Position numbers and translations under genes: made by a program. A stretch of 64,000 bases of DNA from Ruegeria sp. A3M17 (GTDB taxonomy: Bacteria > Pseudomonadota > Alphaproteobacteria > Rhodobacterales > Rhodobacteraceae): contig NZ_QOCF01000028.1 of the NCBI RefSeq assembly GCF_003318255.1, forward strand, positions 124,001-188,000, read 5' to 3'. Below, piece after piece: positions 5,220-46,889 of this stretch. The notes under the pieces are model-generated. The model did no database searches, had not been told where the DNA came from, and worked only from the letters and a program-made list of their open reading frames with translations. Position 1 is the first letter of the stretch; each line of letters starts with the position of its first letter.

Positions 5220-5242
5220 CCGCGAATTCTAGCATAAGTGAG

Positions 5243-5878: not shown

Positions 5879-5879
5879 G

Positions 5880-6437
5880 TCAGACCTCTGCCCGCCACAT
5901 CAGCGAAATATGCGTGTCGCCGTATTTACGCGTATTGTGCAGGTCAAACCCTTCTGGCGCCTCCATGGGGGCGTTTTCTTCCCAGACAATCAAGGCATCT
6001 TTTGCCAGCCACCCCCCTTGAGTGACCGTCGCAAGCGCCTTTTGTCCCAGGCTTTTGCCGTAAGGCGGATCGAGAAAAATCAGATCACAAGGTGTGCCCG
6101 GATTGTCGCCCAATCGCGTCGCGTCGCGACGGATCAGATCGGTGTAACCCTTGCTGTGGGTCAGATCAATGTTCTTACGGATCAGTCCCTGCGCCACACG
6201 CCCGTCATCCACGAACGTCACATGCACCGCGCCGCGCGACAGCGCCTCAAGCCCCAGTGCTCCGGTGCCGGCGAAAAGGTCCAGAACACGCAGCCCATCA
6301 AAGTCGATCTGATGGCTCAGCACATTGAACAGGCTTTCACGCACACGGTCAGTGGTGGGACGCAGATGCGCCCCGGCATCGCCTTTGCCGACCGAGGCCA
6401 AGGCGCGGCCCCGGAACTCTCCGGCGATGATCCTCAC
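5880..6437 (-). CDS. rsmD: 16S rRNA (guanine966-N2)-methyltransferase
   Basis: 185 residues, normal for RsmD. MRIIAGEFRGR at the N-terminus, TTDRVRESLFN before the SAM-binding loop LDLFAGTGALGLEAL, and the catalytic N6/N2-methyltransferase motif DPPY (FLDPPYGKS). It methylates G966 of 16S rRNA in the 30S subunit. Its ATG overlaps the stop codon of the upstream flavoprotein by four bases (6434-6437), implying translational coupling. Confidence 0.95.
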   Translation of the reverse strand: MRIIAGEFRGRALASVGKGDAGAHLRPTTDRVRESLFNVLSHQIDFDGLRVLDLFAGTGALGLEALSRGAVHVTFVDDGRVAQGLIRKNIDLTHSKGYTDLIRRDATRLGDNPGTPCDLIFLDPPYGKSLGQKALATVTQGGWLAKDALIVWEENAPMEAPEGFDLHNTRKYGDTHISLMWRAEV

Positions 6438-7645
6438 GCTTTGAGCAGCGGTTTCAGGTCCGCGTCTGGGTCGGCCACGACGGCCGGGTCAGCAGTTTTG
6501 CCTGCATCAATCAGGCGCTTGCCGACCATATAGGCGCGCGGGTCATTCATCGCGTCGACCGCGATCAACTGATCGCCTTTATAGTACCAGAAGGACACCG
6601 TCTGCCCGTCGCCCTTGCGGGTCACCACGCAGTCATAGCCGGTGTTCAGACCTGCGATCTGTAGTTTGACGTCATATTGGTCCGACCAGAACCACGGCGT
6701 CGCCACATAATCCCTGGCGGCACCCAGCATGTTCTGAGCAACGATCTCGGCCTGATCGATGGCATTCGGTACGCTTTCCAGCCGGATACGGCCTCCATCA
6801 TGCGGGAACGACGCGCAATCGCCCGCCGCCCAGATAGCCGGATCAGAGGTGCGGCCATGGGCATCCGTTTTGATGCCGTTGTCCAATTCCAACCCGGCCA
6901 TCTCGGCCAATTGGGTCGAGGGTGCGATGCCCACGCCAACCACGACGAAATCAACCTCAAGCTTGGTGCCATCAGTCAGAATGGCCCCGGTTACCTTGCC
7001 GTCTTCGCCGACCAGACGATCCAGCCCGACGCCTTCACGGATGTCGGCACCGTAATCGGCATGCAAGGCACGGAAGTAATCGCTGGTTTCCGGTGCCGCG
7101 ACACGTTGCAAAATACGTTCTGCCATCTCGACCAGAGTGACCTTGACCCCGCGCTTGGCGCAGACGGCAGCCGCTTCAAGCCCGATATAGCCACCACCAA
7201 CGATCAGGGCGCGGGCGCCCTCTATCACGCGGGGCTCCATCTCGTCGATATGGGTCAGATCGCGCACGACATGGACGCCTTTGAGATCACCGCCAATGGC
7301 AGCAGGCAGGTAACGCGGGTCGGACCCAGTGGTCAGGGCCAGTTCGTCATATGAAATCACCTCATCGCCCAGGATCACGGTCTTGGCCTGAGGGTCGATC
7401 CCGGTCACGCGCTGACCCAGACGCAGGGTGATGTTGTTTTCGGCGTAGAAACTTTCGGGGCGTAGGAACAGGCGTTCAAGCTCCATGTCGCCAAGCAGAT
7501 AAGCCTTCGACAGAGGCGGTCGCTGATAGGGCAGATGCTGCTCGGCACCGATCAGCGTGATATCGCCTTCAAATCCGTCCTTGCGCAGTCTTGCAACAAG
7601 AGATGATCCCGCCTGCCCGGCTCCGATCACAACAATATGGCTCAT
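6434..7645 (-). CDS. FAD-dependent ferredoxin/rubredoxin reductase-like oxidoreductase
   Basis: 403 residues of the pyridine-nucleotide-disulfide reductase fold as in putidaredoxin and rhodocoxin reductases: FAD loop VIGAGQAGSS at the N-terminus, PYQRPPLSKAYL, a second GGGYIGLEAAA NAD(P)H-binding loop, and WAAGDCA for the FAD ribityl chain. No redox CxxC is present, as expected for this class. It would pass electrons from NAD(P)H to a small iron-sulfur protein, often for a P450 or Rieske oxygenase, neither of which is encoded here. AGGA precedes the ATG by five bases. Confidence 0.88.
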   Translation of the reverse strand: MSHIVVIGAGQAGSSLVARLRKDGFEGDITLIGAEQHLPYQRPPLSKAYLLGDMELERLFLRPESFYAENNITLRLGQRVTGIDPQAKTVILGDEVISYDELALTTGSDPRYLPAAIGGDLKGVHVVRDLTHIDEMEPRVIEGARALIVGGGYIGLEAAAVCAKRGVKVTLVEMAERILQRVAAPETSDYFRALHADYGADIREGVGLDRLVGEDGKVTGAILTDGTKLEVDFVVVGVGIAPSTQLAEMAGLELDNGIKTDAHGRTSDPAIWAAGDCASFPHDGGRIRLESVPNAIDQAEIVAQNMLGAARDYVATPWFWSDQYDVKLQIAGLNTGYDCVVTRKGDGQTVSFWYYKGDQLIAVDAMNDPRAYMVGKRLIDAGKTADPAVVADPDADLKPLLKA

Positions 7646-7744
7646 CTTCGTCCTGCCCTGTCAAATTCCCGTGGTTTCATTCTCTGGCTCACCTATATTG
7701 CGGCTGAGGCCGACTCTGCAAATCCAATCGACAGGAGGAACAAG

Positions 7745-8230
7745 ATGATTTCAACCGGTGATACGCTTCCCGACGCAACGTTGACTCAAATGGGGGCAGA
7801 AGGGCCCGAAGAGGTTCGGATTTCAGACAAGACCAAAGGCCGCAAAGTCGTGATCTTTGCTGTGCCCGGCGCATTCACACCAACCTGCCATTCGGCCCAC
7901 GTGCCCAGCTTTATGCGAACCAAGGAACAGTACGACGCCAAAGGCGTGGACGAAATTATCTGCGTCTCGGTCAACGACCCTTTTGTAATGAGCGCGTGGG
8001 GCGAAGCCACTGGTGCGACAGGCGCAGGCCTGACCATGCTGGCCGACGCCGCATCCGAATTCACGAAGGCCATTGGCATGGATTTCGATGCCCCGCCCGT
8101 CGGCCTGCTTGCACGCTCAAAGCGCTATGCGATGTTGGTCGAAGATGGCAAGGTCGTTGCGCTGAACCTCGAGGAAAACCCCGGTGCCTGCGAGATTTCC
8201 GCGGGCGAAGGTCTGCTTGAGGCCATCTAG
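7745..8230 (+). CDS. Peroxiredoxin, Prx5/type II (glutaredoxin-dependent type)
   Basis: 161 residues from ATG 7745, preceded by a strong AGGAGG (7733-7738); the in-frame extension to 7637 is not needed. The peroxidatic cysteine is Cys48 in PGAFTPTCHSAHVPSF, the hallmark of the Prx5 group, and no fused glutaredoxin domain is present. It reduces H2O2 and organic hydroperoxides with thiol reductants in the cytoplasm. It is divergent from the flavoprotein gene. Confidence 0.95.
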   Translation: MISTGDTLPDATLTQMGAEGPEEVRISDKTKGRKVVIFAVPGAFTPTCHSAHVPSFMRTKEQYDAKGVDEIICVSVNDPFVMSAWGEATGATGAGLTMLADAASEFTKAIGMDFDAPPVGLLARSKRYAMLVEDGKVVALNLEENPGACEISAGEGLLEAI

Positions 8231-8238
8231 GTCACTCG

Positions 8239-8259
8239 GGCCCCGGTACAGCCGGGGCC
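8239..8259. terminator. GC-rich stem-loop after the peroxiredoxin gene
   Basis: GGCCCCGG (8239-8246) and CCGGGGCC (8252-8259) pair perfectly around a 5-base loop nine bases after the stop codon. There is no following T-run, so it may be an mRNA 3'-end structure or a weak terminator rather than a standard intrinsic terminator. Confidence 0.45.
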
Positions 8260-8333
8260 ACGTTAACCCTATTTCACTTGATGCAACTTCCTGATGGGTC
8301 GATACTTGCCCCATTCATTCAGGGAGTTTTTTG

Positions 8334-8579
8334 ATGAAGCTCAAAGTCATCACAGTCATTCTGGGTTCGGCAGGTGCACTCACCGCCTGTGGCCCGGCCC
8401 CGACACCTCAGCAGCAGCAGGCACGACAGCATGAGATTGCCTGCCTCGGCGGCACACTAGGCGGCGCACTGATCGGCGGGGCGATTGGCAATCAATTCGG
8501 CGGTGGGTCCGGCAAAGACATCCTGACCGCAGCAGGGGCCGTCGCGGGCGGTGTCTCGGGCCAGCGTTACGCGTGCTGA
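8334..8579 (+). CDS. Glycine-zipper lipoprotein
   Basis: 81 residues from ATG 8334 with AGGGAG at 8321-8326. A short signal sequence ends in the lipobox LTAC (Cys19), followed by a Gln-rich linker and a glycine-zipper segment (GGTLGGALIGGAIGNQFGGG) of the 17-kDa-antigen/2TM type. It is likely anchored in the outer membrane. Its stop overlaps the ribosome binding site of the EF-hand gene, so the two are probably cotranscribed. Confidence 0.8.
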   Translation: MKLKVITVILGSAGALTACGPAPTPQQQQARQHEIACLGGTLGGALIGGAIGNQFGGGSGKDILTAAGAVAGGVSGQRYAC

Positions 8580-8589
8580 GGAGAGAAGG

Positions 8590-8940
8590 ATGATGAAAAC
8601 AGCTATTATAACGACAACGGTCATTCTGTTGGCCAGTGCAACCTTGGCGGAAACAGTGGCTGAACTGCACGAAAAGGAACTGAACGCCATTGATTCCAAC
8701 AACGATGGCTTCCTGTCCAAGGACGAGTTCAACGCCTTTTCGGATTATGCCTTTCAGGAAATGGACGAAGACAAGAATGGAACGCTGGGTCTGGAAGAAG
8801 CCAAGCCGTTTCTGGACATAAAGCAGTTTCAAAACGTTGACCGCAACAACGACAGCTTTATCTCACGATCAGAGTATGACCTGCAGATGGGCGATGATTT
8901 CCTGGCCGCCGATCAGGACGGAAACGGCCAGTTGGATTGA
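8590..8940 (+). CDS. Exported EF-hand calcium-binding protein
   Basis: 116 residues. The first 20 residues form a signal peptide (IITTTVILLASATLA). Several EF-hand loops follow: DSNNDGFLSKDEF, DEDKNGTLGLEEA, DRNNDSFISRSEY, and a partial DQDGNGQLD at the very C-terminus. It likely binds Ca2+ in the periplasm. The ATG at 8590 or 8593 is preceded by GAGGAG (8578-8583). It lies between two small lipoprotein genes on the same strand. Confidence 0.85.
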   Translation: MMKTAIITTTVILLASATLAETVAELHEKELNAIDSNNDGFLSKDEFNAFSDYAFQEMDEDKNGTLGLEEAKPFLDIKQFQNVDRNNDSFISRSEYDLQMGDDFLAADQDGNGQLD

Positions 8941-8973
8941 TCGCACGACCGGGCTGAACGATAGGAGCGTGGT

Positions 8974-9282
8974 ATGAAAAAGTGGATGGCCTTCGGCATT
9001 CTGGGGTTTCTTGCCGCCTGTGATACGCCGCAGGCCCCCGTGGTGACCGGACCGAACGGACAGCCCCAGATCCAGATCAGTACTTCGGGCCTGACGTGCT
9101 ATGATACGCGTTGTTTGGACATCAACCCGGCCGCGCGCAGCGTTCGATCGGTTGGGAATCGGACAGCCGGTATTCCACGAGACATCGACGTCAGCAACGG
9201 TACGGTAACACCCGCCGAATTCCGTCGTCTGGGTGAAATCGCTTCCCTGGCCGGGGGTATGGGATCCAGAGGGGACCGTTAA
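8974..9282 (+). CDS. Small lipoprotein of unknown function
   Basis: 102 residues with a short signal sequence and lipobox LAAC (Cys16: [11 protein letters not shown]). The mature part contains two cysteines in TCYDTRCLD that could form a disulfide. I recognise no family. It follows the EF-hand gene by 33 bp and its end overlaps the convergent phhB stop by three bases. Confidence 0.75.
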
Positions 9283-9572
9283 ACGAGGCTGTCCATTTTA
9301 CGCGCCAACTTAGCATCCAGCGCTGACAAACCGCCCACATCATGGGTGGACAGGACGACCTCGACCGTGCGGTACACGTTTGACCATTCGGGATGGTGGT
9401 TCCATTTCTCGGCAAAGATCGCCACCTGGGTCATCCAGCCAAAGGCATGAACAAAATCTTCGAATATGAAGGTTTTGGTGATTGCGTCCCGGTCGGTGAC
9501 CATGGTCCAGCCGTTGTCGAACAGCGGATCAAGAAGAGGGCCGCGTGTCTCGGTCGACAATAGTTCCGTCAT
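9279..9572 (-). CDS. phhB: 4a-hydroxytetrahydrobiopterin dehydratase (pterin-4a-carbinolamine dehydratase)
   Basis: 97 residues from ATG 9572. The family signature is present: [12 protein letters not shown], the paired histidines in WNHHPEW, and [17 protein letters not shown]. The enzyme recycles the carbinolamine left by aromatic amino acid hydroxylases, although no such hydroxylase is in the window; in bacteria it also acts as a folate/molybdopterin-related accessory. The ATG overlaps the end of the upstream acyltransferase gene by four bases. Confidence 0.92.
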
Positions 9573-10756
9573 TGCTGTTCCTCCGGATTCGATTTTCTGA
9601 ACGGACCATAGTCCGTCAGAATCTCGATCTCTTCTCCCACTGCGTGGGCCTCGGCGTCCAGATATTTCTTGATCGCATCGGCAAAGCCCGGGTCGTTGAC
9701 CCAATGCAAGCTGTGCGTGCGCGTGGGCAAGTAACCGCGCGCCAGCTTATGTTCACCCTGCGCGCCTGCTTCGACCCGCGCCAGACCTTCCGCAATGGCA
9801 AAGTCGATCGCCCTATAATAGCACAGTTCGAAATGCAGGCAGGCGTGATGTTCAGTGCAACCCCAATACCGCCCAAAAAGCGTTTCGCGGCCGATGAAAT
9901 TCAAAGCCCCGGCGATGGGGTATCCGTCCCGTTCAGCCAGCACCAAGGCCATGTCGTCCGTCATGGTTTCATGTGCAATATCAAAGAATTGGCGAGTCAG
10001 ATAGGGCGCGCCCCACTTACGGGACCCGGTGTCCTGATAGAACTGCCAGAAGGCATCCCAGTGTTCGGGGCGCAGGTCATCCCCTGTCAGCGTGCGGATT
10101 TCGCCGCCAAAATCGATGGCCTGCGCGCGTTCTTTGCGGATGTTTTTGCGCTTGCGCGATGATAAAGCCGCAAGAAATCCGTCGAAATGCTGGTATTCGT
10201 CATTCAGCCAGTGAAATTGCTGTGACTGGCGCAGCATAAGGCCCATCTGTTCGCCCGCCATCGCCTCGGCTTCGGTGCAGAAAGTCGCGTGGACCGAAGA
10301 CACCTGATTGTCCGCAGCCAATTGCACCGCCCCCTGCACCAGCGCAGACATGCCAACCGAGTCATAGCCGGGGCGCACCAGAAAACGCCGACCTGTTGCG
10401 GGGGTGAATGGTACGGCGATCTGCAGCTTGGGATAATACCGACCCCCGGCGCCTTCATAGGCATGCGCCCAGTTGTGGTCGAAGATATATTCGCCCTGAC
10501 TGTGGGATTTGGCATACATCGGCGCCACCGCGATCAGCATCCCGTCCAGATAGGCCGTCAGGTATTGCGGCTGCCAGCCAGTTTCGCGCCCGACCGAGCC
10601 GCTGTGCTCAAGTGCAAGAAGAAACCGGTGGGTGGTAAACGGATCAAGCGGACGGCCGCCATCGGCAACCTCGGGACAGGCGCAGCTGTCCCATTCCGCC
10701 GCAGATATCTGCGACAGCGAGCCCAGCACCCGAACCTCGATCTGTGCCTGATCCAT
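9569..10756 (-). CDS. FemAB/GNAT-like acyltransferase (DUF482, peptidoglycan-recognition type)
   Basis: 395 residues matching the COG3146/DUF482 pattern: [31 protein letters not shown] near 95-110, [14 protein letters not shown], and a C-terminal GNAT-like half with [16 protein letters not shown] and [15 protein letters not shown]. These proteins are thought to transfer an acyl or aminoacyl group, but no substrate is established. It is the third gene of a ridA-GDPD-acyltransferase-phhB operon on the minus strand. Confidence 0.85.
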
Positions 10757-10801
10757 TTGCCCTCCGCCTCTGATCTTTATCTGTGACGTCGCAGGGCTGG
10801 T

Positions 10802-11569
10802 TCAACCCGGTTGTGCAGCCAGATATCCTTCGAACGTCACATTGTCCGCAACTTCGCGGGCCTCTGCCTCTTGTTCAGGCGACCGCACAGTCCAGCACAG
10901 GATCGGTACACCGCGTGCCTTCAGTTCGGCCACGCGGGGGCGGTCAAGGTCTTCGACCTCATGGCTAATGAAACTGGCCCCTACACGGTCGAAATCCGGA
11001 ATGTCGCGCAGGTGGTCACAAACACCCTGAGGTAAAAGCTCGACCTTGGGCTGGTACGATCCCGTCACGATGCCACGCGGCAGATGCGGTGCCAGCCGCG
11101 CCAGTTCAGCGACCGAGTTTGGGTTGAACGACATCAACGCCACCGGCCCATCGTAACCTGACAATGCACGCACCGCTTCTTGTTCCAGCGGGCCCACGGA
11201 TGTGCCCATCGCGCCGTCCTGATCTTTGAATTCGATCAGCAGCGGTACTTTGCCTGACACGATTTGTAGCACCTCATCCAGCGTCGGGATACCATCGTCG
11301 GCGTGCAACAGCGTGGTGCCTGACGCCTGAACCGACGTGATCTGCTGGATCGGACCGGACTGCCCGGTCAGGCGGGTCATGTCATAGTCATGAAACACCA
11401 TGGCCCGGTTGTCCGAGGTCCGTTGCAGATCAATCTCAATCCCATACCCGGCGTCCACGGCGGCGCGAATGGCCGCCCGGCTGTTTTCCGGGCGGTTGTC
11501 CTGTTTGTCGTGCAGCGCACGATGCGCCAGCGGGACTTGAAGGAATACGTCAGGCAGTGCGGGCGTCAT
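10802..11569 (-). CDS. Glycerophosphodiester phosphodiesterase
   Basis: 255 residues with a GDPD-type TIM barrel: catalytic HR in LAHRALHD, NRPENS, the metal ligands in GIEIDLQRT, and the second catalytic histidine in VFHDYDMTRLTG; LIEFKDQ supplies a further acidic ligand. It hydrolyses deacylated phospholipids to glycerol 3-phosphate and an alcohol. No signal peptide is visible, so it is probably cytoplasmic. Its start overlaps the ridA stop (11566-11569). Confidence 0.92.
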   Translation of the reverse strand: MTPALPDVFLQVPLAHRALHDKQDNRPENSRAAIRAAVDAGYGIEIDLQRTSDNRAMVFHDYDMTRLTGQSGPIQQITSVQASGTTLLHADDGIPTLDEVLQIVSGKVPLLIEFKDQDGAMGTSVGPLEQEAVRALSGYDGPVALMSFNPNSVAELARLAPHLPRGIVTGSYQPKVELLPQGVCDHLRDIPDFDRVGASFISHEVEDLDRPRVAELKARGVPILCWTVRSPEQEAEAREVADNVTFEGYLAAQPG

Positions 11570-12021
11570 TGAACTTCGAAGATACCTTCGATCTCAACCG
11601 CGACGCCCAAGGGCAGTGCCGCCGCACTGACGGCCGAACGCGAATGGCGACCTGCATCGCCCAGCGCTTCGACCAAAAAGTCCGACGCGCCGTTGATGAC
11701 CTGCGGCTGCGCAGTGAAATCTGCGGTCGAGTTCACGAACCCGGTCAGCTTGATGACGCGCACCAACTTTTCGATATCGCCACCGCAGGCCGCTTTGACC
11801 TGCGCCAGAAGGTTGATCGCACATACCTTAGCCGCAGCAGCGCCTGCTTCGACTTCCATGTTGTCGCCCAGCTTGCCAGTGATCAGATCATCCGCCTTCG
11901 AGATCTGCCCCGAGACATAGACGATATTGCCCACGCGCACGAAGGGCACGTAGTTGGCCGCCGGCGCAGGAGCGTCCGGTAGGTTGACACCCAGGCTTTC
12001 CAGTTTCGCCGCGATGCTCAT
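11566..12021 (-). CDS. RidA family protein (YjgF/YER057c/UK114)
   Basis: 151 residues from ATG 12021 with GGGAGGAG just upstream on the minus strand. The family features are YVPFVRVGNIVYVSGQI and NLLAQVKAACGG...VRVIKLTGFVNS. It belongs to the longer RidA-like subgroup in which the last segment (PLGVAVEIEGIFEV) is conserved. RidA hydrolyses reactive enamine/imine intermediates from PLP enzymes; longer paralogues may differ. First gene of the four-gene operon. Confidence 0.88.
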   Translation of the reverse strand: MSIAAKLESLGVNLPDAPAPAANYVPFVRVGNIVYVSGQISKADDLITGKLGDNMEVEAGAAAAKVCAINLLAQVKAACGGDIEKLVRVIKLTGFVNSTADFTAQPQVINGASDFLVEALGDAGRHSRSAVSAAALPLGVAVEIEGIFEVQ

Positions 12022-12267
12022 GAGGTCTCCTCCCAAATTTGAGTCGGGGCGAAGCTAACCGGGAAGGCAGGGATCGAAAAGTGCGAAAACGGCGATGTGA
12101 CCTACGCCGGCTGTGGGCGTAACTTTTCTTATTCTGAACTGTTGAACCTGTGTCACTTTACGTTGGCCTATTCGGCAGGTTAAACGCTATCTGTTTCATA
12201 TTGGTGGCGAAACGCCTATGTGACTTTGGGTAGGCCGGGCACAACGGCCAAAGAGAGTATTGATTAA

Positions 12268-37085: not shown

Positions 37086-38378
37086 ATGGTCGATATTGCG
37101 ACACGCGTGTACAATCATAAATGGAAGATTGACCCGATTGTACGGTCTTTGATCGACACGGATTTCTACAAACTGCTGATGTGCCAGTCAGTGTTTCGAA
37201 ATAAGCCCCAAACGGATGTGGCTTTTTCCCTGATCAACCGGTCGAATCACATCCCTTTGGCCAAACTTATCGATGAAGGCGAGCTGCGCGAGCAATTGGA
37301 TCATATCCGGTCGCTTAGCCTGAGCCGGGGCGAAAGCACGTGGCTGCGGGGCAATACGTTCTATGGCAAACGTCAGATGTTCCGTTCGGATTTCATGGAA
37401 TGGTTCGAAAACATGCGCCTGCCGCCCTATCACCTGGAACGGAAGGGCGATCAGTACGAGCTGACCTTTGAGGGTAAATGGCACGAGGTTATGCTGTGGG
37501 AAATCCCGGCTCTTGCGGTTCTGATGGAGCTGCGCTCGCGCGCAGTGCTGAACAACATGCGGCGGTTCGAGCTGCAGGTGCTATATGCCCAGGCCATGAC
37601 CCGCGTTTGGAAGAAGATCGAAAAGCTGCGGGATATTGACGGACTTGGGATCGCTGACTTCGGAACCCGACGTCGACACAGCTTTCTTTGGCAGGACTGG
37701 TGCGTGCAGGCCATGATCGAGGGTCTGGGATCGTCCTTTACCGGTACATCGAACTGTCTGATCGCCATGCGGCGCGAAGTTGAGGCCATCGGCACCAACG
37801 CGCACGAACTGCCGATGGTCTACAGTGCCCTTGCCAAAGACGATGCCGAACTGGCGCAGGCGCCCTATGACGTGCTGAGCGACTGGCACGACGAACATGA
37901 CGGCAATCTGCGCATCATTCTGCCCGACACCTATGGCACGCAGGGCTTTCTGGATCGCGCCCCCGACTGGCTGGCCGGATGGACCGGCATTCGCATCGAC
38001 AGCGGTGATCCCGCAACAGGCGCGGAAACCGCGATCAAGTGGTGGCAATCCCGTAGAGAAGACCCCCTGGAAAAGCGCGTGATCTTCTCGGATGGTCTGG
38101 ATGTCGACAAAATTCGGGAACTGCACACTCAATTCGCCCACAGAACCAAAGTCTCGTTCGGGTGGGGCACTTTGCTGACCAACGATTTTCGCGGGCTCGT
38201 GCCAAACGATGCATTGGCGCCGTTCTCACTGGTCTGCAAGGCTGTGTCCGCCAATGGCCAGCCGACCGTGAAACTGTCGGACAACCCGGAAAAGGCAATG
38301 GGACCAAAGGACCAGATCGAACGCTACAAACGAGTGTTCGGCGTAGGTGCGCAAGAAGCGATCGAGGTGATTGTTTAG
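37086..38378 (+). CDS. pncB: Nicotinate phosphoribosyltransferase
   Basis: 430 residues. LIDTDFYKLLMCQSVF and the phosphate/PRPP-binding segments (FGTRRRHSFLWQDW with the catalytic histidine; GTSNCLIAMR; IRIDSGDP) are those of PncB. It makes nicotinate mononucleotide from nicotinate and PRPP with ATP. GCAGGAG precedes the ATG. With pncA it forms the Preiss-Handler salvage route. Convergent to the aldehyde dehydrogenase gene, only three bases between stops. Confidence 0.95.
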   Translation: MVDIATRVYNHKWKIDPIVRSLIDTDFYKLLMCQSVFRNKPQTDVAFSLINRSNHIPLAKLIDEGELREQLDHIRSLSLSRGESTWLRGNTFYGKRQMFRSDFMEWFENMRLPPYHLERKGDQYELTFEGKWHEVMLWEIPALAVLMELRSRAVLNNMRRFELQVLYAQAMTRVWKKIEKLRDIDGLGIADFGTRRRHSFLWQDWCVQAMIEGLGSSFTGTSNCLIAMRREVEAIGTNAHELPMVYSALAKDDAELAQAPYDVLSDWHDEHDGNLRIILPDTYGTQGFLDRAPDWLAGWTGIRIDSGDPATGAETAIKWWQSRREDPLEKRVIFSDGLDVDKIRELHTQFAHRTKVSFGWGTLLTNDFRGLVPNDALAPFSLVCKAVSANGQPTVKLSDNPEKAMGPKDQIERYKRVFGVGAQEAIEVIV

Positions 38379-38381
38379 GCT

Positions 38382-39833
38382 CTAACCATGGTAAGCCGCG
38401 ACCGTTTTCAACTGGGAAAAGCCATACAAGGCCTCGAACCCTTTCTCGCGGCCGTGACCGGATTTTCCGACACCACCAAAGGGCAGCTCTACGCCACCAC
38501 CCGCGCCGTAGTTGTTGATGAACACCTGACCCGAGCGCAGTTGCTTTGCCAGCCGCATCTGCCGTGCGCCGTCGCGGGTCCAGATGCTTGCGACCAGCCC
38601 GTAATCGGTGTCGTTGGCGATCTTCACCGCGTCTTCTTCTGAATCGAATGGGATAAGCACCTGAACAGGGCCGAAAATCTCATCCTTGGCCAGACTGTGA
38701 TCCGGCGGAACGTCCGCAAAAAGGGTCGGCACAACATAGGCGCCTTCGGACCGCGCCCCGTCTACGATCCGCCCTTGCCCTGCGACGGTCAGGTCTGCAC
38801 CCTTGGAAAGAAAACCCGAAACGATGTCCTTTTGACGAGCCGATATCAGCGGGCCAACGCGCAGATCATCCTGCGCCGGGCCAACGGTCAAATCTGCATA
38901 GGCCGCTGCCATGCGTTGCTTGACCTGATCATAAACCCCGCGCTGCACCAGAATGCGTGATGAGGCAGAGCAGGTTTGCCCCGCATTCTGAACCCCCGCG
39001 TTGACCAGAAACGGCAGGGCTGCATCCAGATCGGCATCGTCAAACACCAATTGAGGCGACTTCCCCCCAAGCTCCAGCGTCACAGGAACCACGTTTTGCC
39101 CCGCTGCCTGCTGCACCGTCGCCCCCGTAGCAACCGACCCGGTAAACGAGACATGGTGCACGCCCGTATGGCCCGCCAAAGCCGCCCCCGCCTCGGCCCC
39201 CAACCCGGGTACGACGTTCAGGGCACCGGCGGGCAAACCGGCCTCTTGCGCCAGATGCGCAAAGGCCAGCGCGGTCAGGCAAGCTTCTTCCGCAGGTTTC
39301 AGAACGCAGGCATTGCCCATCGCCAGTGCGGCCCCAACCGACCGCCCGATGATCTGCATCGGATAGTTCCATGGCACGATATGCCCCGTCACGCCGTGCG
39401 GTTCCCGTAAAGTATAGACGGTGTAGCCATCCAGATACGGGATGGTCTCGCCCATGACCTTGTCCGCGGCGCCACCATAGAATTCGCAATACCGTGCCAA
39501 CGCAACCGCATCTGCCCGTGCCTGCGTCAGGGGCTTGCCGACATCCATGGCCTCTAGCGTGGCCAGGTCCTCGACACGCTCCAAAACAATCCTCCCAATA
39601 CGCGTGAGGATACGGCCCCGCTCCAGTGCGGTCTTTCGTCCCCAATCCCCGTCAATCGCAGTCTGAGCCGCCCTGACCGCAGCATCAACATCATGCGCGC
39701 CACCCCTTGCGATCTGGCAAATCTCTGAGCCGTCAGAAGGATTGATCAAAGGCAATGTTTGTTCTGAGGCTGGCGGCACCCAATTGCCGCCGATCAGACA
39801 CAAGCTTGGATCAAACCAAAGGGGGCTGGACAT
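38382..39833 (-). CDS. NAD-dependent aldehyde dehydrogenase
   Basis: 483 residues with catalytic Cys288 (NAGQTCSASSR), Glu254 (LELGGKSP), cofactor loop GSVATGATV and PWNYP. It is similar to, but not the same group as, betB (43-45 kb side operon). It begins 33 bp after the ABC ATPase gene on the same strand and is therefore likely the last gene of the peptide-type importer operon. The aldehyde it oxidises may derive from the imported compound. Confidence 0.88.
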   Translation of the reverse strand: MSSPLWFDPSLCLIGGNWVPPASEQTLPLINPSDGSEICQIARGGAHDVDAAVRAAQTAIDGDWGRKTALERGRILTRIGRIVLERVEDLATLEAMDVGKPLTQARADAVALARYCEFYGGAADKVMGETIPYLDGYTVYTLREPHGVTGHIVPWNYPMQIIGRSVGAALAMGNACVLKPAEEACLTALAFAHLAQEAGLPAGALNVVPGLGAEAGAALAGHTGVHHVSFTGSVATGATVQQAAGQNVVPVTLELGGKSPQLVFDDADLDAALPFLVNAGVQNAGQTCSASSRILVQRGVYDQVKQRMAAAYADLTVGPAQDDLRVGPLISARQKDIVSGFLSKGADLTVAGQGRIVDGARSEGAYVVPTLFADVPPDHSLAKDEIFGPVQVLIPFDSEEDAVKIANDTDYGLVASIWTRDGARQMRLAKQLRSGQVFINNYGAGGGVELPFGGVGKSGHGREKGFEALYGFSQLKTVAAYHG

Positions 39834-39866
39834 GAGATACTCCTGTTTTTGGCTCTAATATGCAGT

Positions 39867-41465
39867 TCACGCCACATCCCGACCAATGTCTGGCAGCACT
39901 GGCGCGGCATTAATCAGGTCTTTTGTGTATTGATGTTGTGGGTCAGAGAAGACACTATCGGTATCGCCCTCTTCTACGATCTTTCCGGCCTGCATCACCA
40001 TAACGCGGTCAGTGATGGTGCGCACGACGCTCAGATCATGGCTAATGAACAGATAAGTCAGTTCATAGGCCTCACATAGTTCGGCCAACAGGTCGAGGAT
40101 CTGCGCCCGGACCGACACATCAAGGGCCGAGACGGCCTCGTCAAACAAGATCAGTTCGGGCCGGATGATTAAGGCACGGGCGATGGCGATGCGCTGTCTC
40201 TGACCGCCCGAGAATTCATGGATATACTTACCAGCGTCATCCGGGCTGAGACCCACCGCTGTCAACATTTCAGCGATCCGGTCCTGCCTCTCGGACCCCG
40301 TTACAGGGGCATCGAGCAGATGGAATGGTTCAGTGATCAGCCGGGCCACGCGGTGACGTGGATTGAAGCTGCCATAGGGGTCCTGAAAGACCACCTGCAT
40401 CTTGCGCCGCACGGCGAGGTTGGGTTTGTGACCCGAAAAGACAGGCTGCCCGTCCAGACGAATATCACCGCCCTGAACTTCTTCCAGGCCCAATATTGCC
40501 TTTGTTAGGGTCGATTTTCCACACCCCGACTCGCCGACCAGGCCCAAACGTTCTCCGCAGTTGAGCGTAAAGCTGACTTGGTTCACCGCCCTGTGATGCC
40601 CGGGTTTTTCAAACAGCCCTTTGCGGGGCAGACGATAGTCGCGAACGACATTTGTCACTTCAAGTAAAGGGCGGGATTGCGCGGGTTCAGGCAGGTATAC
40701 CTGATGCCCCGAAGCCTCGAACAGCATACGGGTATATGGATGCTTCATGTGTTGCAGCAGGTGGCCGGTTGCTCCGGATTCGACCATTTCGCCATGGCGC
40801 ATGACAACGATTTGGTCAGCCATATCCGCGACCACGGCAAGGTCATGAGTGATCATCAACAGCCCCATGTCGTATTCCGACACAAGCCCTTTCAGAAGCT
40901 TCAGGATTTGCGCCTGCGTTGTCACATCCAGCGCTGTGGTCGGCTCATCCGCGATCAACAGCTTGGGACGCAAGGCAATCGCCATCGCAATTACGACGCG
41001 CTGGCGCTGACCCCCGGATAGTTCGTGCGGAAAGCGGGACAGCGGGAAGCGATCCGGCGGCAGGCCAACACGGGTCAGAACTTCCTCCGCCCGGTCACGC
41101 GCCTGTCTGGGCGGCATCGCCTTGTGGATCAGGATGGTCTCCATCACCTGATCGCCGATGGTTTTGACTGGGTTCAGTGCGGTCATCGGCTCTTGGAACA
41201 CCATACCGATCGCGGCACCGCGCAAGGCACACATGTCGTTTTCGTTGCGGCCCAGCATATCTGAGCCGTTCAGCCGGATGGCACCGGCTGTCTTTGCCCC
41301 GTCCGGCAAAAGCTGCATCACCGCAAGCGCGGTCATCGATTTACCCGACCCGCTTTCCCCGGTCACGGCCACGATCTGACCGGGCGCAATGGACAGATTG
41401 ACCTGTTTCAGGATGTCCGTGCCGTGAATGGACAGCGACAGGTTTTTGATCTCAAGCAAACTCAT
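39867..41465 (-). CDS. Peptide/nickel-type ABC transporter, fused double ATPase (DppD-DppF type)
   Basis: 532 residues from ATG 41465, overlapping the permease stop by four bases. Two complete ATPase modules: Walker [12 protein letters not shown] near 36 and [10 protein letters not shown] near 315; signatures LSGGQRQRV and [15 protein letters not shown]; Walker [13 protein letters not shown] and [12 protein letters not shown], each followed by an oligopeptide-binding C-terminal extension. A single chain thus replaces the DppD/DppF pair. It drives the two permeases upstream. Confidence 0.94.
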
Positions 41466-42277
41466 GCGCGGGCCACTCTGATCCGGGGATCCAGCCAATC
41501 GCGCAACCCATCGCCCAGCAGGTTCAACCCCAGTACCGTGACAATGATCGCCAGACCCGGAATCAGAGCCAAATGCGGGGCAAAACTGACCATAGTTTGC
41601 GCATCAGCCAGCATCCGGCCCCAACTTGGCGTGGGCGGTTGCGCGCCTAGACCGACATAGGAAAGACCTGCCTCGGCCAGAATTCCCAACGAGAACTGGA
41701 TGGTGCCCTGAACGATAAGAAGATTGGCGACGTTGGGCAGGATATGCTCGGCCGATATCCGTGCCGCACCTTTGCCCGAAACGCGCGCGGCCAGGATGAA
41801 TTCCCGCTCCCACAGAGATAGCGCTGCGCCGCGAGTGATGCGTGCAAAAACCGGGATATTGAAAATGCCAATGGCGATGATCGCATTTATCGCGCCAGCA
41901 CCGAAAACGGCAGTGATCAGTATGGCAATGACCAGCGAAGGGAAGGCAAAGACCAGATCATTACCGCGCATGATCAGCTCGTCCAGCCACGACCCTTTGC
42001 GCGCAGCCGCTGTCAGGCCCAAAGGCACGCCCAGCGCCATGCCGATGCCCACCGCCACCAGGGCCACCGCAATCGACGTGCGCGCACCAACCATGATCAT
42101 CGAGAACATGTCGCGTCCGAAATGATCTGTACCAAACCAGTGTTGCGCGTTGGGGGGCTGCAGTTTGCCGGGGATGTTCAGCGCGGCGTAGTCATAGGGC
42201 GTCCAGACAAAGGAAATCGCCGCCGCCAACAGCACCAGCGAGGACAGACTAGCCCCAAGGATCAGGCTCCGGCTCAT
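41462..42277 (-). CDS. Peptide-type ABC transporter permease (DppC-like)
   Basis: 271 residues, N-terminal helix then LGTDHFGRDMFSM-like segment (FGTDHFGRDMFSMIMVG) that is diagnostic of DppC/OppC permeases, and an EAA loop with GKGAARISAEHILPNVANLLIV. Partner of the DppB-like permease. Overlaps both neighbours by four bases. Confidence 0.93.
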   Translation of the reverse strand: MSRSLILGASLSSLVLLAAAISFVWTPYDYAALNIPGKLQPPNAQHWFGTDHFGRDMFSMIMVGARTSIAVALVAVGIGMALGVPLGLTAAARKGSWLDELIMRGNDLVFAFPSLVIAILITAVFGAGAINAIIAIGIFNIPVFARITRGAALSLWEREFILAARVSGKGAARISAEHILPNVANLLIVQGTIQFSLGILAEAGLSYVGLGAQPPTPSWGRMLADAQTMVSFAPHLALIPGLAIIVTVLGLNLLGDGLRDWLDPRIRVARA

Positions 42278-43221
42278 GTCCGGCTCCTTAACCTTGGATC
42301 AACGGCGGCATAGGCCAGATCGACAAGAAAGTTCACGGTGATGACGGCAAAGACCAGCAGCATCACCACGGATTCCACAACGATCAGATCGCGGGCCGAG
42401 ATTGCCTGAAACACCAATCGCCCAAGACCCGGCAGGTAGAACACCTGTTCGATGATGATTGAACCGGCTAGCAGGAAGGAAAACTGTAGCCCGATGATGG
42501 TCAGAACCGGGATCAGCGCGTTGCGCACCCCGTGCCGCCACAGGGCCTGACGCCGCGACAACCCCTTGGCACGTGCGGTACGCATGAAATCCTCACCCAG
42601 AATATCCAACAGCGACGACCGCATGACCCGCGCCAGAATGGCCGCCTGCGGCCAGGCCAGCGCGATGGCCGGCAGTGTCAGGGAATGTAGCCCTGCCCAA
42701 AGCCCCTTATCCCAGCCTGCGAACCCTCCGGCATTGAACCAGCGCAGATTGATGGCGAAGATCAGCACCAACATCATGGCGAACCAGAAATTCGGCACTG
42801 CAATGCCAAGTTGCGTTGCCCCCATTACCGTCAGATCGCCCGGTTTGCCCCGGCGCGCGGCGGCGTAGATGCCAACCGGAAACGCAATCGCGGTGGACAG
42901 GGTCAGCGCATACAGCGCCAGTGGCAGCGAGACCCACAGCCGATCCGCGATCATCTGCGACACGGGCGTGCGATAGGTGTAAGAGGTTCCGAAATCCCCC
43001 ACCATCATCCCGCCAACCCAATTGAAATACCGCTGCAGCTTGGAAACGTCCAAACCCAATTCGGCCCGTAGGGCGGCAAGCGTATCTTCTTGCGCATTAA
43101 CGCCCAGCATGAATGACGCCGGATCGCCGGGCGCCACCTCAATCACGGCAAATATGACCACAGAGGCGACGGCGAGGCTGATCACCAGCGATATCAGTCG
43201 TTTGAGGGCGTAACGAAGCAT
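42274..43221 (-). CDS. Peptide-type ABC transporter permease (DppB-like)
   Basis: 315 residues with the DppB N-terminus (MLRYALKRLISLVISLAVASVVIFAVIEVAPGDPASF) and the EAA-loop segment DFMRTARAKGLSRRQALWRHGVRNALIPVLT. It pairs with the DppC-like protein. It begins 40 bp after the ion-channel gene on the same strand. Confidence 0.94.
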   Translation of the reverse strand: MLRYALKRLISLVISLAVASVVIFAVIEVAPGDPASFMLGVNAQEDTLAALRAELGLDVSKLQRYFNWVGGMMVGDFGTSYTYRTPVSQMIADRLWVSLPLALYALTLSTAIAFPVGIYAAARRGKPGDLTVMGATQLGIAVPNFWFAMMLVLIFAINLRWFNAGGFAGWDKGLWAGLHSLTLPAIALAWPQAAILARVMRSSLLDILGEDFMRTARAKGLSRRQALWRHGVRNALIPVLTIIGLQFSFLLAGSIIIEQVFYLPGLGRLVFQAISARDLIVVESVVMLLVFAVITVNFLVDLAYAAVDPRLRSRT

Positions 43222-43261
43222 CTAGGTCACGTTAGGGGTGCGTGCCCTGCGGGTCCAGCAC

Positions 43262-44332
43262 CTATGGAACCAGAAGATAGGCAAAAACGGCATAGCCAAC
43301 GATTGCGGCGTAACCCAGCGGGTAAATCCACTTGATGGCGTAATTATCCAGCTTGCGCGCCCCGGATTCGCGACCCGAGACTTTGAGCCTGCGCAAGGCG
43401 ACATTGAACACAATCAATGCCCCGGTCATCAGGAACATGCATTGCAGAACGAAATCCAGAAATGTCAGGTATCCCAGCTTTGGCAGATCAGCAGAAATCG
43501 CCCAGTTGAAAGCCACAAATACTAGCAAGTTTCCGCCGGCAATTTCGATCCGTTTGCGGTATTCATCCAGAAAGAACAGTGCCCAGCCAACCGAGATCAG
43601 CACCAGCATCGGCAGAAACACCCGAATGACATAGTAGGTCAGATGTCGGTGGCCTTCAAAAATCAGCGCAACCTGATCGCTGTCCTGACCGGAAAGGCCC
43701 GTGACCTGAGAGGTTTCAAGTCGCGCATTGTCCAGAATCCACTCTTCTTCGCCCAGCAGGTCACCAAGACCCGAGAATTCGTTCATCGGATGATAGGACA
43801 CATATTGGGATGGAAAGATCGAAACGACCTCGAAATGGAACTCCTGCGTGTCGAAAGGGTATTTCCGAAAATCGAAATGTGGGGCCTGCAATGTCAGCGA
43901 GGATTTCTCGACATACAGCACCCGCCCGTCATATCGCAGAGAGGCCGCGGATTCGTGAATCCACTTGTTGGATTGTTGGTTGTGAATGACAAATGCAGGC
44001 ACCACCGTCCCGATCTCAGCGGCATGATCGGCAAGTGCCGGGGGGTTGAAAACCCGGATATCGCGCCCCAGCTCTTGCCGGTCAAAAGCCAGCGCCGGGT
44101 CGGTCCACTCAACACGCAGCACAACCACAGCACCGTAGTTTTCGGCCTTCTGGTCAACGCTGGTGATCTGATCGATTCGAATACCGATACCAACATCCAG
44201 CGGGTTCTCGGGCGTCCCGATGGGCGTATCCAACCGACTGTCCAGCATGTTCTGCGCCCCAACCGGTTCCACTGACGTTGCCGCAAGGGCAACGGTCACA
44301 AAAACCAGAAACAGGGCACGAAACAAAATCAT
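43262..44332 (-). CDS. Pentameric ligand-gated ion channel (prokaryotic Cys-loop receptor homologue)
   Basis: 356 residues from ATG 44332 (signal peptide MILFRALFLVFVTVALAATS). The extracellular beta-sandwich (about 25-230) contains the YPFD Pro-loop (158-161, FRKYPFDTQEFHFEV) that is the prokaryotic counterpart of the Cys-loop; the two cysteines are absent, as in all bacterial members. Four membrane helices follow: M1 232-254, M2 262-281 (pore), M3 290-315, M4 335-355. The M2-M3 link contains DLPKLGY, the motif shared with GLIC and ELIC. It sits inside an ABC importer operon between the binding protein and DppB. Ion selectivity cannot be read reliably; Arg/Lys cluster at the inner end of M2. 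Confidence 0.92.
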   Translation of the reverse strand: MILFRALFLVFVTVALAATSVEPVGAQNMLDSRLDTPIGTPENPLDVGIGIRIDQITSVDQKAENYGAVVVLRVEWTDPALAFDRQELGRDIRVFNPPALADHAAEIGTVVPAFVIHNQQSNKWIHESAASLRYDGRVLYVEKSSLTLQAPHFDFRKYPFDTQEFHFEVVSIFPSQYVSYHPMNEFSGLGDLLGEEEWILDNARLETSQVTGLSGQDSDQVALIFEGHRHLTYYVIRVFLPMLVLISVGWALFFLDEYRKRIEIAGGNLLVFVAFNWAISADLPKLGYLTFLDFVLQCMFLMTGALIVFNVALRRLKVSGRESGARKLDNYAIKWIYPLGYAAIVGYAVFAYLLVP

Positions 44333-44358
44333 CCTTGGCTCACTCAAAACACTAAAAT

Positions 44359-44386
44359 GCAGGGGCCATGAACCAGAGGCCCCTGC
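44359..44386. promoter_or_regulatory. Intercistronic hairpin after the peptide-binding protein gene
   Basis: GCAGGGGCC (44359-44367) and GGCCCCTGC (44378-44386) pair perfectly around a ten-base loop, seven bases after the binding-protein stop on the minus strand. A short U-rich stretch follows. As in the sugar operon, it likely reduces or processes transcription into the downstream genes. Confidence 0.7.
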
Positions 44387-44392
44387 CTTGAG

Positions 44393-45880
44393 TTACTCGG
44401 ACCAGCTGATTTGCGTCAGATCGATTGCGGCCGTGGGCGCGTTTTCCCACAGGCCCTGCACGCCCGCCTTGGCGACACCCAGCTTGGCCAGCTGGAACAG
44501 GTACCCGTTGACGAAATCGCTTGAGATCAGGCGCTGCGCCTCACCCATCAGACGGGTGCGTTCTTCGGGGTCCGTCGTCGAATTCAACGTGTCCATCAGC
44601 GCCTGGAAATCGGTGCTGTCATACTGGAAGTAATAGTCAGGACGCGCATAGATCCCGATATCCATAGGCTCGGTATGACTGACGATGGTCAGGCCAAAGT
44701 CCTTGCCCTTGAACACCGATTCCAACCATTGGGCCCATTCAACATTGATGATATTGGCCGTGATCCCGACCTCGGCCAGTTGGGCGGCCACAATCTCACC
44801 CCCGCGTCGGGCATACGAGGGCGGCGGCAAGTGCAGAGTCGTTTCAAACCCTTCCGCATACCCAGCATCGGCCAACATCTTGGCGGCCTTCTTGGGGTCG
44901 TAGGCCGAGTTCCCGGTCAAATCGACATAAGCCGGGTTGTGCGGCGCGAAATGGGTGCCGATGGGCGTGCCATAGCCAAACATTGCTCCATCGATGATCG
45001 CCTGACGGTCAATCGCGTGGGCCAATGCCTGACGCACTTGGATATCATCGAAGGGTGGCATCTTGTTATTGGTGGACAGAATGGTTTCCCCTTCGGTCGA
45101 GCCGACAAGCACCTGAAAGCGTGGATCAGCTTCAAATTGCGGCAGGTTTTCTGGCGCAGGGAAGTTGTCGAACACGTCGATATCCTCGGCCATCATAGCC
45201 GCAAATGCCGCTGTCGGGTCCGAGATAAATTTGAACGTAGCCGTCTCTAATTCAGGCTGATTGCCCCAATAGTCCGGGTTGCGATTCAGAGTGATACTGT
45301 CGCCCTGCACCCATTCACCAAAGGTAAAAGCGCCGGTTCCGACGGGGTTGGTCTTGATGCCCTCGATGCTTTCGGGCGCGACAATAACCGCATCACCCCA
45401 GGCCAGGTTGAACAGGAAGTTCCCGTTCGGCTCGGACAGGGTCACCTTGACGGTCAGCGGGTCGACCACCTCGATGTTTTCAATCCCGGCAAACAGGGCT
45501 TTTTGCGCATTTGCGCTATCCTCGGATCGGGCGCGGTCCAGGCTGAACTTGACGTCCTCGGCATCCATCGTGCTGCCGTCGTGGAAGGTCACCCCATCGT
45601 GCAGTTTGAAGGTATAGACCTTGCCATCTTCCGAGATTTCCCAACTTTCAGCCAGTCCGGGTACCACCGATCCGTCACCCATAAACCGGGTCAGGCCTTC
45701 GAAGATATTGGTGTAAACCACCGAATCGATGGCCTGCGCTGCGGCACTGGTCGGGTCCAGATGCGGCGGCTCTAGTTGCAACGCGATGGTAATGTCGGAT
45801 TTGGCGAAAACCTGTGTACCAAACAGGCTGGCGCTAACCGCCAGCACCGAGGCAAAGGACCGAAATGTCTGCTTTGTCAT
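44393..45880 (-). CDS. Peptide-type ABC transporter substrate-binding protein (SBP family 5)
   Basis: 495 residues. A signal peptide of about 26 residues (SVLAVSASLFGTQVFA), then the family-5 pattern: VVYTNIFEGLTRF, PGLAESWEISEDGKVYTFKLHDGVTFHDGSTMDAEDVKFSLDRA, and AMMAEDIDVFDNF. It binds a peptide, opine or similar small solute in the periplasm. First gene of the six-gene leftward operon. Confidence 0.94.
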   Translation of the reverse strand: MTKQTFRSFASVLAVSASLFGTQVFAKSDITIALQLEPPHLDPTSAAAQAIDSVVYTNIFEGLTRFMGDGSVVPGLAESWEISEDGKVYTFKLHDGVTFHDGSTMDAEDVKFSLDRARSEDSANAQKALFAGIENIEVVDPLTVKVTLSEPNGNFLFNLAWGDAVIVAPESIEGIKTNPVGTGAFTFGEWVQGDSITLNRNPDYWGNQPELETATFKFISDPTAAFAAMMAEDIDVFDNFPAPENLPQFEADPRFQVLVGSTEGETILSTNNKMPPFDDIQVRQALAHAIDRQAIIDGAMFGYGTPIGTHFAPHNPAYVDLTGNSAYDPKKAAKMLADAGYAEGFETTLHLPPPSYARRGGEIVAAQLAEVGITANIINVEWAQWLESVFKGKDFGLTIVSHTEPMDIGIYARPDYYFQYDSTDFQALMDTLNSTTDPEERTRLMGEAQRLISSDFVNGYLFQLAKLGVAKAGVQGLWENAPTAAIDLTQISWSE

Positions 45881-46049
45881 GTAAATTACTCCCCACTGAA
45901 AATGGAAACCTGCGTTTTTTTGGGCCGTACTGCACCCAACTTCCCTTTAAACCTTAGGTCATTCAAGGAAATGTTCGCGCAACCGGGGTTTCTATAGCCC
46001 GCTACGATCTGTTATGCCGCGCTGCAACATGACAACCGGAGGAGCGACA

Positions 46050-46889
46050 ATGAGCGCCACCGCCCGCAAAAAAGCCCCGAATGCCCAGGATATTCGCGCC
46101 CGCAAAGGCGGCGAGCCGCTGGTCAGCCTGACCGCCTATACCACGCCGATGGCGCGGCTGATGGATGATCATTGTGATTTTGTCTTGGTGGGCGACAGCG
46201 TCGGCATGGTGTTGCACGGGCTGGAATCAACGCTGGGTGTGACGATGGAGATGATGGTGATGCATGGTCAGGCCGTCGCGCGCGGCCTGGAAAGTGCGAT
46301 GATGGTCATCGACATGCCCTTCGCCAGTTACGAGCACTCGCCTGCCGAGGCATTCCGCAATGCCGCCCGGCTGATGTCCGAAACCAGCGCGGGCGCGGTC
46401 AAACTGGAAGGCGGAGTCGAGATGACCGAGACCATCCGCTTTCTGGTCAAGCGCGGGATTCCGGTGATGGCGCATATCGGCCTGACCCCACAGTCGATCA
46501 ACACACTTGGCGGATACAAAGTTCAGGGCCGCGACGAACAGGCCGAGGCTGTACTGGCCGATGCACGCGCTGTGGCCGAGGCGGGCGCGTTCTCAGTCGT
46601 TCTTGAAAAAGTACCGCAGAAGCTGGCCGATCAGATCACGGCTGAGATCGCGATCCCGACTATCGGAATCGGAGCCTCGGCTGGGTGCGACGGTCAGATT
46701 CTGGTTGTGGACGACATGGTTGGCTTTTTCACCGCCTTCAAACCGAAATTCGTCAAACGCTATGCTGAACTTGGCCCGTTGGCCGAAGCCGCCATCGCCG
46801 AATATGCCGCCGATGTGCGCGCACGAGCCTTCCCGGCGGCCGAACACGTCTTTTCCGATCAGGCCCCGATCAAAGGACCCAAGACATGA
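46050..46889 (+). CDS. panB: 3-methyl-2-oxobutanoate hydroxymethyltransferase
   Basis: 279 residues from ATG 46050 (GGAGGAG just before). [31 protein letters not shown] holds metal-binding Asp residues; [11 protein letters not shown] and [12 protein letters not shown] are PanB signatures. It adds a hydroxymethyl group from methylene-tetrahydrofolate to ketoisovalerate, the first step of pantothenate synthesis. It overlaps panC by four bases. Confidence 0.96.

Follow-up and report, generated by a model that had tools for sequence, protein, structure and literature searches.

The question raised by this locus is why a gene for a pentameric ligand-gated ion channel (pLGIC) lies among the genes of an ABC importer, and whether its position there points to its function. 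The locus is in Ruegeria sp. A3M17, within a 64,000 nt stretch of contig NZ_QOCF01000028.1 that was analyzed as a whole and is here termed the window. The order of genes on the minus strand of the window is SBP, pLGIC, permB, permC, double ATPase and ALDH. SBP (positions 44393–45880) encodes a 495 amino acid SBP_bac_5 solute-binding protein of the OppA/DppA type (PF00496, E-value = 3e-93), and an orthologue is found in all 54 genomes of a sample of the genus. permB (positions 42274–43221) encodes a DppB-like importer permease of 315 aa (PF00528, 5.6e-38) and permC (positions 41462–42277) a DppC-like permease of 271 aa (PF00528, 4e-34). The ATPase gene (positions 39867–41462) encodes a fused double ATPase of 531 aa, which is DppDF-like and displays PF00005 in two stretches together with oligo_HPY. 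An aldehyde dehydrogenase gene, ALDH (positions 38382–39833, 483 aa, PF00171, 1.8e-154), ends the permease unit. The coordinates agree with a preliminary description of this DNA, which placed the pLGIC between the SBP and DppB-like genes and on the same strand. The junction between SBP and permB is referred to here as the slot.

The pLGIC gene (positions 43262–44332, minus strand) encodes a predicted protein of 356 aa with a signal peptide. The start codon is an ATG at position 44332, and a TTG is present in frame at position 44347. The sequence displays the ligand-binding domain Neur_chan_LBD (PF02931, E-value = 1.3e-13, 51 bits, with 26 required); PF02932, the model of the membrane domain, is not matched in the Pfam search at 0.001. 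The phmmer comparison shows the closest similarity to sTeLIC, the pLGIC of the Tevnia jerichonana endosymbiont (6fl9, 2e-78), followed by DeCLIC (1.2e-71), with GLIC far weaker. The AlphaFold2 monomer (27-row alignment, mean pLDDT 85.9) displays a signal helix, ten strands that form a beta-sandwich, and four helices, M1 to M4, at aa positions 231–254, 258–280, 291–318 and 322–354. A Foldseek search with this model also gives the sTeLIC chains as the best matches, i.e. 6fl9 with 43% identity and TM-scores of 0.82 (query) and 0.93 (target). The preliminary description had recognized a pLGIC by a YPFD sequence, four helices and a DLPKLGY sequence, and all of these are present; the assignment is borne out by Pfam, phmmer, the AlphaFold2 model and Foldseek. 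The protein has the features of a Pro-loop type prokaryotic pLGIC, i.e. an LBD ectodomain, four membrane helices, the Pro-loop proline and aspartate, and an arginine before M1. A single match to the pLGIC protein is found in the genome at an E-value of 0.001.

The alignment made in the present analysis, on which the numbering of pore positions is based, includes 53 channels from the slot and 18 non-slot channels. YPFD of the Pro-loop is at residues 158–161 (nt positions 43850–43861), and P159, D161 and the R237 that precedes M1 are each present in 53/53 slot and 18/18 non-slot channels. The M2 pore helix (residues 258–280, nt positions 43493–43561) displays R0′, an acidic residue at 2′, L9′ and W16′. 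R0′, E or D at 2′, N7′ and L9′ are each found in all 71 aligned channels. The window protein is taken as a putative cation channel because of the ring of acidic residues at 2′, which suggests this selectivity. Position 16′ (residue 277) differs between the two sets; it is W in all 53 slot channels and F in all 18 non-slot channels.

The channel gene appears to be maintained by selection. The median dN/dS is 0.074, with a range of 0.025–0.212 (Nei-Gojobori), in 15 pairs of slot loci that were chosen by hand; for the same pairs the medians are 0.042 for SBP, 0.032 for permB, 0.099 for the ATPase and 0.062 for ALDH. As judged by these ratios the gene is functional and is under purifying selection akin to that of the neighboring genes. 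The range of values in the 15 pairs rules out a pseudogene in the clade of the window. Damaged copies exist elsewhere, e.g. a slot copy in a Jhaorihella record (G237) is in two overlapping frames and a non-slot copy (G060) has internal stop codons. A plasmid-borne origin was also considered and set aside, as a plasmid collection, which may omit near records, gave no pLGIC match.

sTeLIC (6fl9, 9ewa) has the same fold and core length as the window channel and, in a pairwise alignment, shares R0′, the acidic 2′, N7′ and L9′. It differs in having F at 16′ and in loop C, whereas the slot channels have W16′, a loop C that is non-aromatic in 52 of 53, and W124 and H126 in beta5. DeCLIC, the Desulfofustis pLGIC (6v4a, 9ftg), has a core with 37% identity and E in the 2′ column. 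According to the entry titles DeCLIC carries an extra N-terminal domain in the same chain; in the window, by contrast, the binding protein is encoded by a separate adjacent gene. GLIC, with 22% identity, and ELIC have the pLGIC fold in common with the window channel and are remote. GLIC is gated by protons and ELIC by amines, and these properties cannot be carried over to the window channel.

The gene order is highly conserved where the channel is present. SBP and permB have orthologue-level matches in all 54 genomes of the genus sample (in one, G028, both genes are interrupted by unread bases), and the channel is present in 38. In all 38 the channel is between SBP and permB by coordinates. 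Some pLGIC match at 1e-5 is found in 17 of 198 genomes sampled from the family, and SBP at 1e-150 in 119; the coordinates place a channel in the slot in eight of the 198, including two from the genus of the window and one with the channel in two frames. A third set, of 74 named pLGIC loci, has 51 with SBP, pLGIC and permB on one strand, two with one flank only (contig end), and 21 with the channel elsewhere. In 51/51 of these slot loci the channel is co-directional with SBP and permB. The named loci and the genus genomes overlap and 21 loci have identical importers, thus the two sets are not independent, because many records represent the same strains. The hosts of slot loci are Ruegeria, Leisingera, Tropicibacter, Falsiruegeria, Cribrihabitans, Seohaeicola, Jhaorihella, one Shimia, one Phaeobacter and other Rhodobacteraceae. 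Whether the order is kept elsewhere in Rhodobacterales was the first check proposed for this locus, and it is kept in 38/38 channel-bearing congeners and in several other genera.

Some loci display local variations. One Ruegeria genome (G045) has a 6.5-kb insert between the channel and permB (L077, positions 5626–12190), with genes that by eye are of the sarcosine-oxidase type and a regulator of the AraC/GlxA type. Three Leisingera loci have about 1.3 kb between channel and permB. Phaeobacter marinintestinus has two pLGICs (L218, L234), one in the SBP slot with 55% identity to the window channel and the other elsewhere with 50%.

The slot is occupied by other sequences where the channel is missing. 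The 16 congeners without a channel match have a gene of a 339-aa type (nine genomes), an SH3 gene (four), less than 160 nt with nothing recognized (two) or unread bases (one). The first of these encodes a conserved secreted protein of 338–339 aa (L063, L064, L065, L066, L068, L072, L073, L074, L075) and starts about 18–32 nt past the SBP stop codon; the one member scanned matches no Pfam family. The second is a small gene on the opposite strand that encodes a secreted SH3-domain protein (L061, L062, L069, L070); the assignment is from Pfam SH3_3 in the one member scanned, that of L069, and all four cluster together. Elsewhere in the family the slot has tannase-type, cyclase, histone-deacetylase-type, arginase-type or aldo-keto-reductase genes, others, or none, and several of the non-channel genes are on the strand opposite to SBP. 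Selection of the family loci was manual and favored gaps of 0.5–9 kb, with a few short ones included; for this reason the 33 loci with other contents and the 13 empty ones are not rates. The SBP–permB junction is thus a permissive site, and position alone is weak evidence of function.

These contents bring in a different account of the locus, in which the junction is a permissive site between two units and the channel serves an unrelated need, i.e. pH, ions or another solute, and borrows the SBP transcript. This account comes near to an even chance. It is favored by the unrelated genes that fill the same junction both within the genus and in other genera, and by retention of the importer without the channel. 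The constant orientation of the slot channels on the SBP strand counts against it, unlike that of several other slot genes.

The arrangement of transcription signals also bears on this. A promoter-like element of two boxes, CTGGAC-N18-TAACGT, is at positions 43229–43258 on the minus strand, 7 nt upstream of the permB ATG and 3 nt past the channel stop codon; it stands out by conservation only, and it is termed promoter-like for its geometry and conservation. A scan with CT[AG]GAC-N18-TAACGT, in which a slightly looser pattern was counted and spacers of 16–18 were allowed, finds it in 48/54 channel loci, 7/9 loci with the 339-aa gene, where it follows that gene, 4/4 SH3 loci, 5/13 empty loci and 15/33 loci with other contents. 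The spacer is 18 nt in 77 matches and 17 nt in two, and 22,600 base-shuffled upstream regions gave no match. The element looks like the promoter of a leaderless message because the boxes and their spacing are fixed and the spacer sequence is free. It could instead be the site of a regulator, as neither the window nor the rest of the genome has a second exact copy. When one mismatch is allowed the genome has nine places in total, compared with 37 for a reversed control. A scan of positions 38200–46100 with the general consensus gave three sigma-70-like sites, compared with 3.5 expected; all three are on the plus strand and none is on the minus strand.

A GC-rich hairpin of nine perfect pairs with a 10-nt loop is located at positions 44359–44386 on the minus strand (fold of positions 44325–44400, z = −2.33), within the 60 nt that separate the SBP stop codon from the pLGIC ATG. 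The 62 nt behind SBP have a z-score of −2 or lower in 31/54 channel loci, 4/4 SH3 loci, 7/13 empty loci and 1/9 loci with the 339-aa gene, and a folding energy of −15 kcal/mol or lower in 52/54, 4/4, 13/13 and 6/9, respectively. The hairpin goes with the SBP gene and not with the channel, because it is present in channel-less loci. The channel probably rides on the SBP transcript behind this hairpin, which would be attenuating or stabilizing. Upstream, in the intergenic region between SBP and the divergent panB, a near-palindrome, GTTCGCGCAAC (window positions 45973–45983), is conserved, and most of the relatives compared have it as GTTGCGC[GC]AAC on the strand of SBP; this could be an operator.

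The locus had been described as one operon. The conserved order on one strand is in keeping with that, but the element that precedes permB in 48/54 channel loci is not; two transcription units are indicated rather than one, and the term operon would fit SBP and the channel at most. Separate promoters had been named as an observation that would speak against a link between channel and importer. This applies in part, as the putative permB promoter is also found in channel-less loci. A putative start of its own for permB is a further point in favor of a channel that only shares the SBP transcript for an unrelated purpose. Four loci of the Tropicibacter/Falsiruegeria type differ; there the element is absent and a gap of 13 nt separates the channel gene from permB, and for these reasons channel and permB look co-transcribed.

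The history of the channel was approached with two trees. The first, a maximum-likelihood tree, includes 71 channels, 53 from the slot and 18 from elsewhere, and all 53 slot channels form one clade with an SH-aLRT value of 96. The method is a quick one with long-branch warnings, and one short slot piece was left out; the slot channels are one clade, though not beyond doubt. A chance neighbor without history is ruled out by the order in 38/38 genomes and the single clade. A FastTree of the importer (four proteins, 114 loci) requires at least 16 changes of channel presence by parsimony, at least ten of them forced by starred branches; gain and loss are indistinguishable on this tree. Given the single channel clade, repeated loss with some exchange at the junction would be the simplest reading. 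In Shimia biformata (L216) the channel of the slot is grouped with the other slot channels, yet the importer is placed at a clear distance from those of the remaining channel-bearing loci, which asks for one transfer or a far older capture. In another Ruegeria genome (G009) the SBP is 97% identical to that of the window and the slot has the SH3 gene and no channel. For the account in which the channel merely occupies a permissive junction, the forced changes of channel presence while the importer stays, and the related channels located elsewhere, are favorable; that no non-slot channel is inside the slot clade is unfavorable.

ALDH is located after the ATPase gene in 53/54 channel loci, 12/13 empty loci, 9/9 loci with the 339-aa gene, 4/4 SH3 loci and 22/33 loci with other contents. 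By its distribution ALDH is part of the importer unit whether the channel is present or not, and it is therefore uninformative on the ligand of the channel. The importer is retained in 15 readable channel-less congeners of the 54, and the slot of one more consists of unread bases. The suggestion that the importer needs the channel is ruled out, since importer and ALDH persist in channel-less loci.

The preliminary description had proposed that the channel senses a primary amine carried by the importer, which ALDH would oxidize after deamination. This is very unlikely. The best-scoring models for ALDH are of the betaine-aldehyde, phenylacetaldehyde and aminobutyraldehyde types, which would suit an amine, but ALDH does not reach the cut-off for any of the models in the scored table and it accompanies the importer regardless of the channel. 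Comparison of SBP with solved structures finds only distant relatives, the best at 1.1e-50 (peptide, nickel, heme and opine binders). Aromatic residues of loop C are part of the amine site of ELIC. Of the 53 slot channels 52, the window channel included, lack F, W and Y in loop C (residues 205–221), thus the aromatic loop C of an ELIC-like amine-gated channel is not displayed. This speaks against a classic cation-pi amine site without excluding one. Available passages on sTeLIC describe 4-bromophenethylamine and 4-bromoamphetamine (entry 9ewa) bound in its vestibule, and a carboxylate in the same site, as modulators in crystallized channels (PMC11988449); by analogy the amines would mildly favor an amine ligand, and the carboxylate offsets this. 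Thus no positive evidence for an amine was obtained, and ALDH does not serve as a pointer to the ligand. The words SPO009, SPO010, opine and ion channel, of which the locus tags were guessed, do not occur in the available part of a report on Ruegeria pomeroyi transporters (PMC10130141).

Residues specific to the slot channels are found in the extracellular domain. S121, N122, H126, K143 and S144 are near-fixed in slot channels (50–53 of 53) and differ in most non-slot channels, and W124 is present in 53/53 slot and 3/18 non-slot channels. In the AlphaFold2 model these six residues are on or beside beta5/beta6, the strands that line the vestibular ligand site of sTeLIC in the passages of PMC11988449 at hand. 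Their nearness to the vestibular region is a lead only. Binding proteins dock on chemoreceptors, and an analogous arrangement can be imagined here, in which loaded SBP is the agonist, so that importer and channel would share one receptor protein. SBP docked on the vestibule would open the channel, and the pair would be a bipartite periplasmic receptor that converts nutrient capture to a cation current. Both the docking of SBP as agonist and the bipartite receptor are unlikely, at a small fraction of the overall probability. The six residues near the vestibular site and the likely common transcript of SBP and channel would fit this idea, as does the recurrence of stand-alone binding proteins and fused binding domains with pLGICs in the available text of Tasneem et al. 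2004 (PMC549065) and in loci from outside the family. Plain clade history could have produced the residue patch, as there are 20 slot-specific columns in all and these are scattered across the protein. The nearly identical SBP of the channel-less G009 also counts against the idea.

Eleven loci of the Shimia type carry the sister channels in a different, shared neighborhood, and the 10 kb around them contain nothing that matches the SBP of the window; by eye this neighborhood has a typA-like gene preceded by SMR-like and mostly YitT-like genes (L219 left aside). Eight distant pLGIC-like loci occur in the family, and the four that were scanned, for one neighbor or for the channel itself (L083, L084, L085, L150), gave no periplasmic binding protein. 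One of these (L085, positions 4245–6721, in G044) is a second, distant pLGIC-like gene with 29% identity over residues 121–296, and a gene for an MscS-type mechanosensitive channel is about 300 nt downstream on the same strand. Another (L083, positions 7000–9195, in G109) encodes a pLGIC of 731 aa, in which some 400 additional residues at the N-terminus have no Pfam match at 0.001.

In the phylum pLGICs are rare, i.e. they are found in 6 of 398 sampled genomes, the window's own included. The other five genomes have six channel loci, and three of the six adjoin periplasmic sensor genes. One of them (L247) has a gene for a PhnD-type binding protein 28 nt downstream of the pLGIC. Two others, from different families (L244, positions 389–2656; L248, positions 5253–7672), have a gene for a dCache_3 membrane sensor directly before the pLGIC and overlapping it or nearly so. 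No sensor neighbor was seen in the remaining three (L245, L246, L249), where one neighbor in all was scanned with Pfam and L246 starts at a contig end.

The available passages of Tasneem et al. 2004 (PMC549065) describe bacterial channel genes that have stand-alone PBP-II and Cache genes next to them, and chemoreception is proposed there for such channels. The window locus likewise has a stand-alone binding-protein gene conserved beside the channel, as in the PBP-II and Cache neighborhoods of ART-LGICs given there. It differs from those passages in that the binding protein is part of a complete ABC importer, and in that there is likely a single capture at a junction that unrelated genes also occupy. 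Neither Silicibacter nor Rhodobacter is mentioned in the available text of that paper, and operon, transporter, periplasmic, Ruegeria, Rhodobacter and genomic context are absent from that of Jaiteh et al. 2016 (PMC4795631). That binding proteins occur next to bacterial pLGICs is thus, in general terms, an idea already in print in 2004 (PMC549065). The case of an importer junction, with a likely single capture, a putative separate start for the permease and channel-less controls, was not found in the titles, abstract openings and passages surveyed.

The explanation that joins these observations combines a one-time capture, expression from the SBP transcript, and a cation channel that senses a solute related to that of SBP. 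A sTeLIC-like channel gene would have been captured, most likely once, between the SBP gene and the permease promoter in Rhodobacteraceae, and would have been retained in Ruegeria, Leisingera, Tropicibacter, Seohaeicola and relatives; the trees support both steps. From the anatomy of the locus the channel would most likely be carried second on the SBP message, with its expression lowered by the hairpin that follows SBP. By homology five copies would assemble in the inner membrane as a homopentamer, with the ligand-binding domain in the periplasm and cation conduction by way of the acidic 2′ ring. A periplasmic solute, the same as that of SBP or related to it, would open the channel at a threshold, and the brief influx of cations may report the solute to the cell or limit its uptake.

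This joint explanation is tentative, and its chances are put somewhat below even. Sensing of the SBP solute by the channel is plausible because periplasmic sensor genes are next to the pLGIC in three of the six loci sampled from outside the family (compare the available passages of PMC549065), and the 11 sister loci without the window's SBP nearby count against it. The same recurrence of periplasmic sensors beside unrelated pLGICs, also noted in those passages, weighs against a channel that serves an unrelated need from the SBP transcript. A functional link between channel and importer is plausible, and stands about even with that account. The interpretation given in the preliminary description, which also put forward that the channel may couple uptake to membrane potential, is partly supported overall.

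To our knowledge the role of bacterial pLGICs in their hosts is an open question, and it is not settled in the titles and abstract openings of the literature surveyed. The present locus would turn this question into a short list of experiments. The channel is inherited beside one SBP, which supplies a concrete first candidate for its ligand, as the ligand of SBP is measurable. Strains with and without the channel are found within one genus and have nearly identical importers, and these form a natural comparison.
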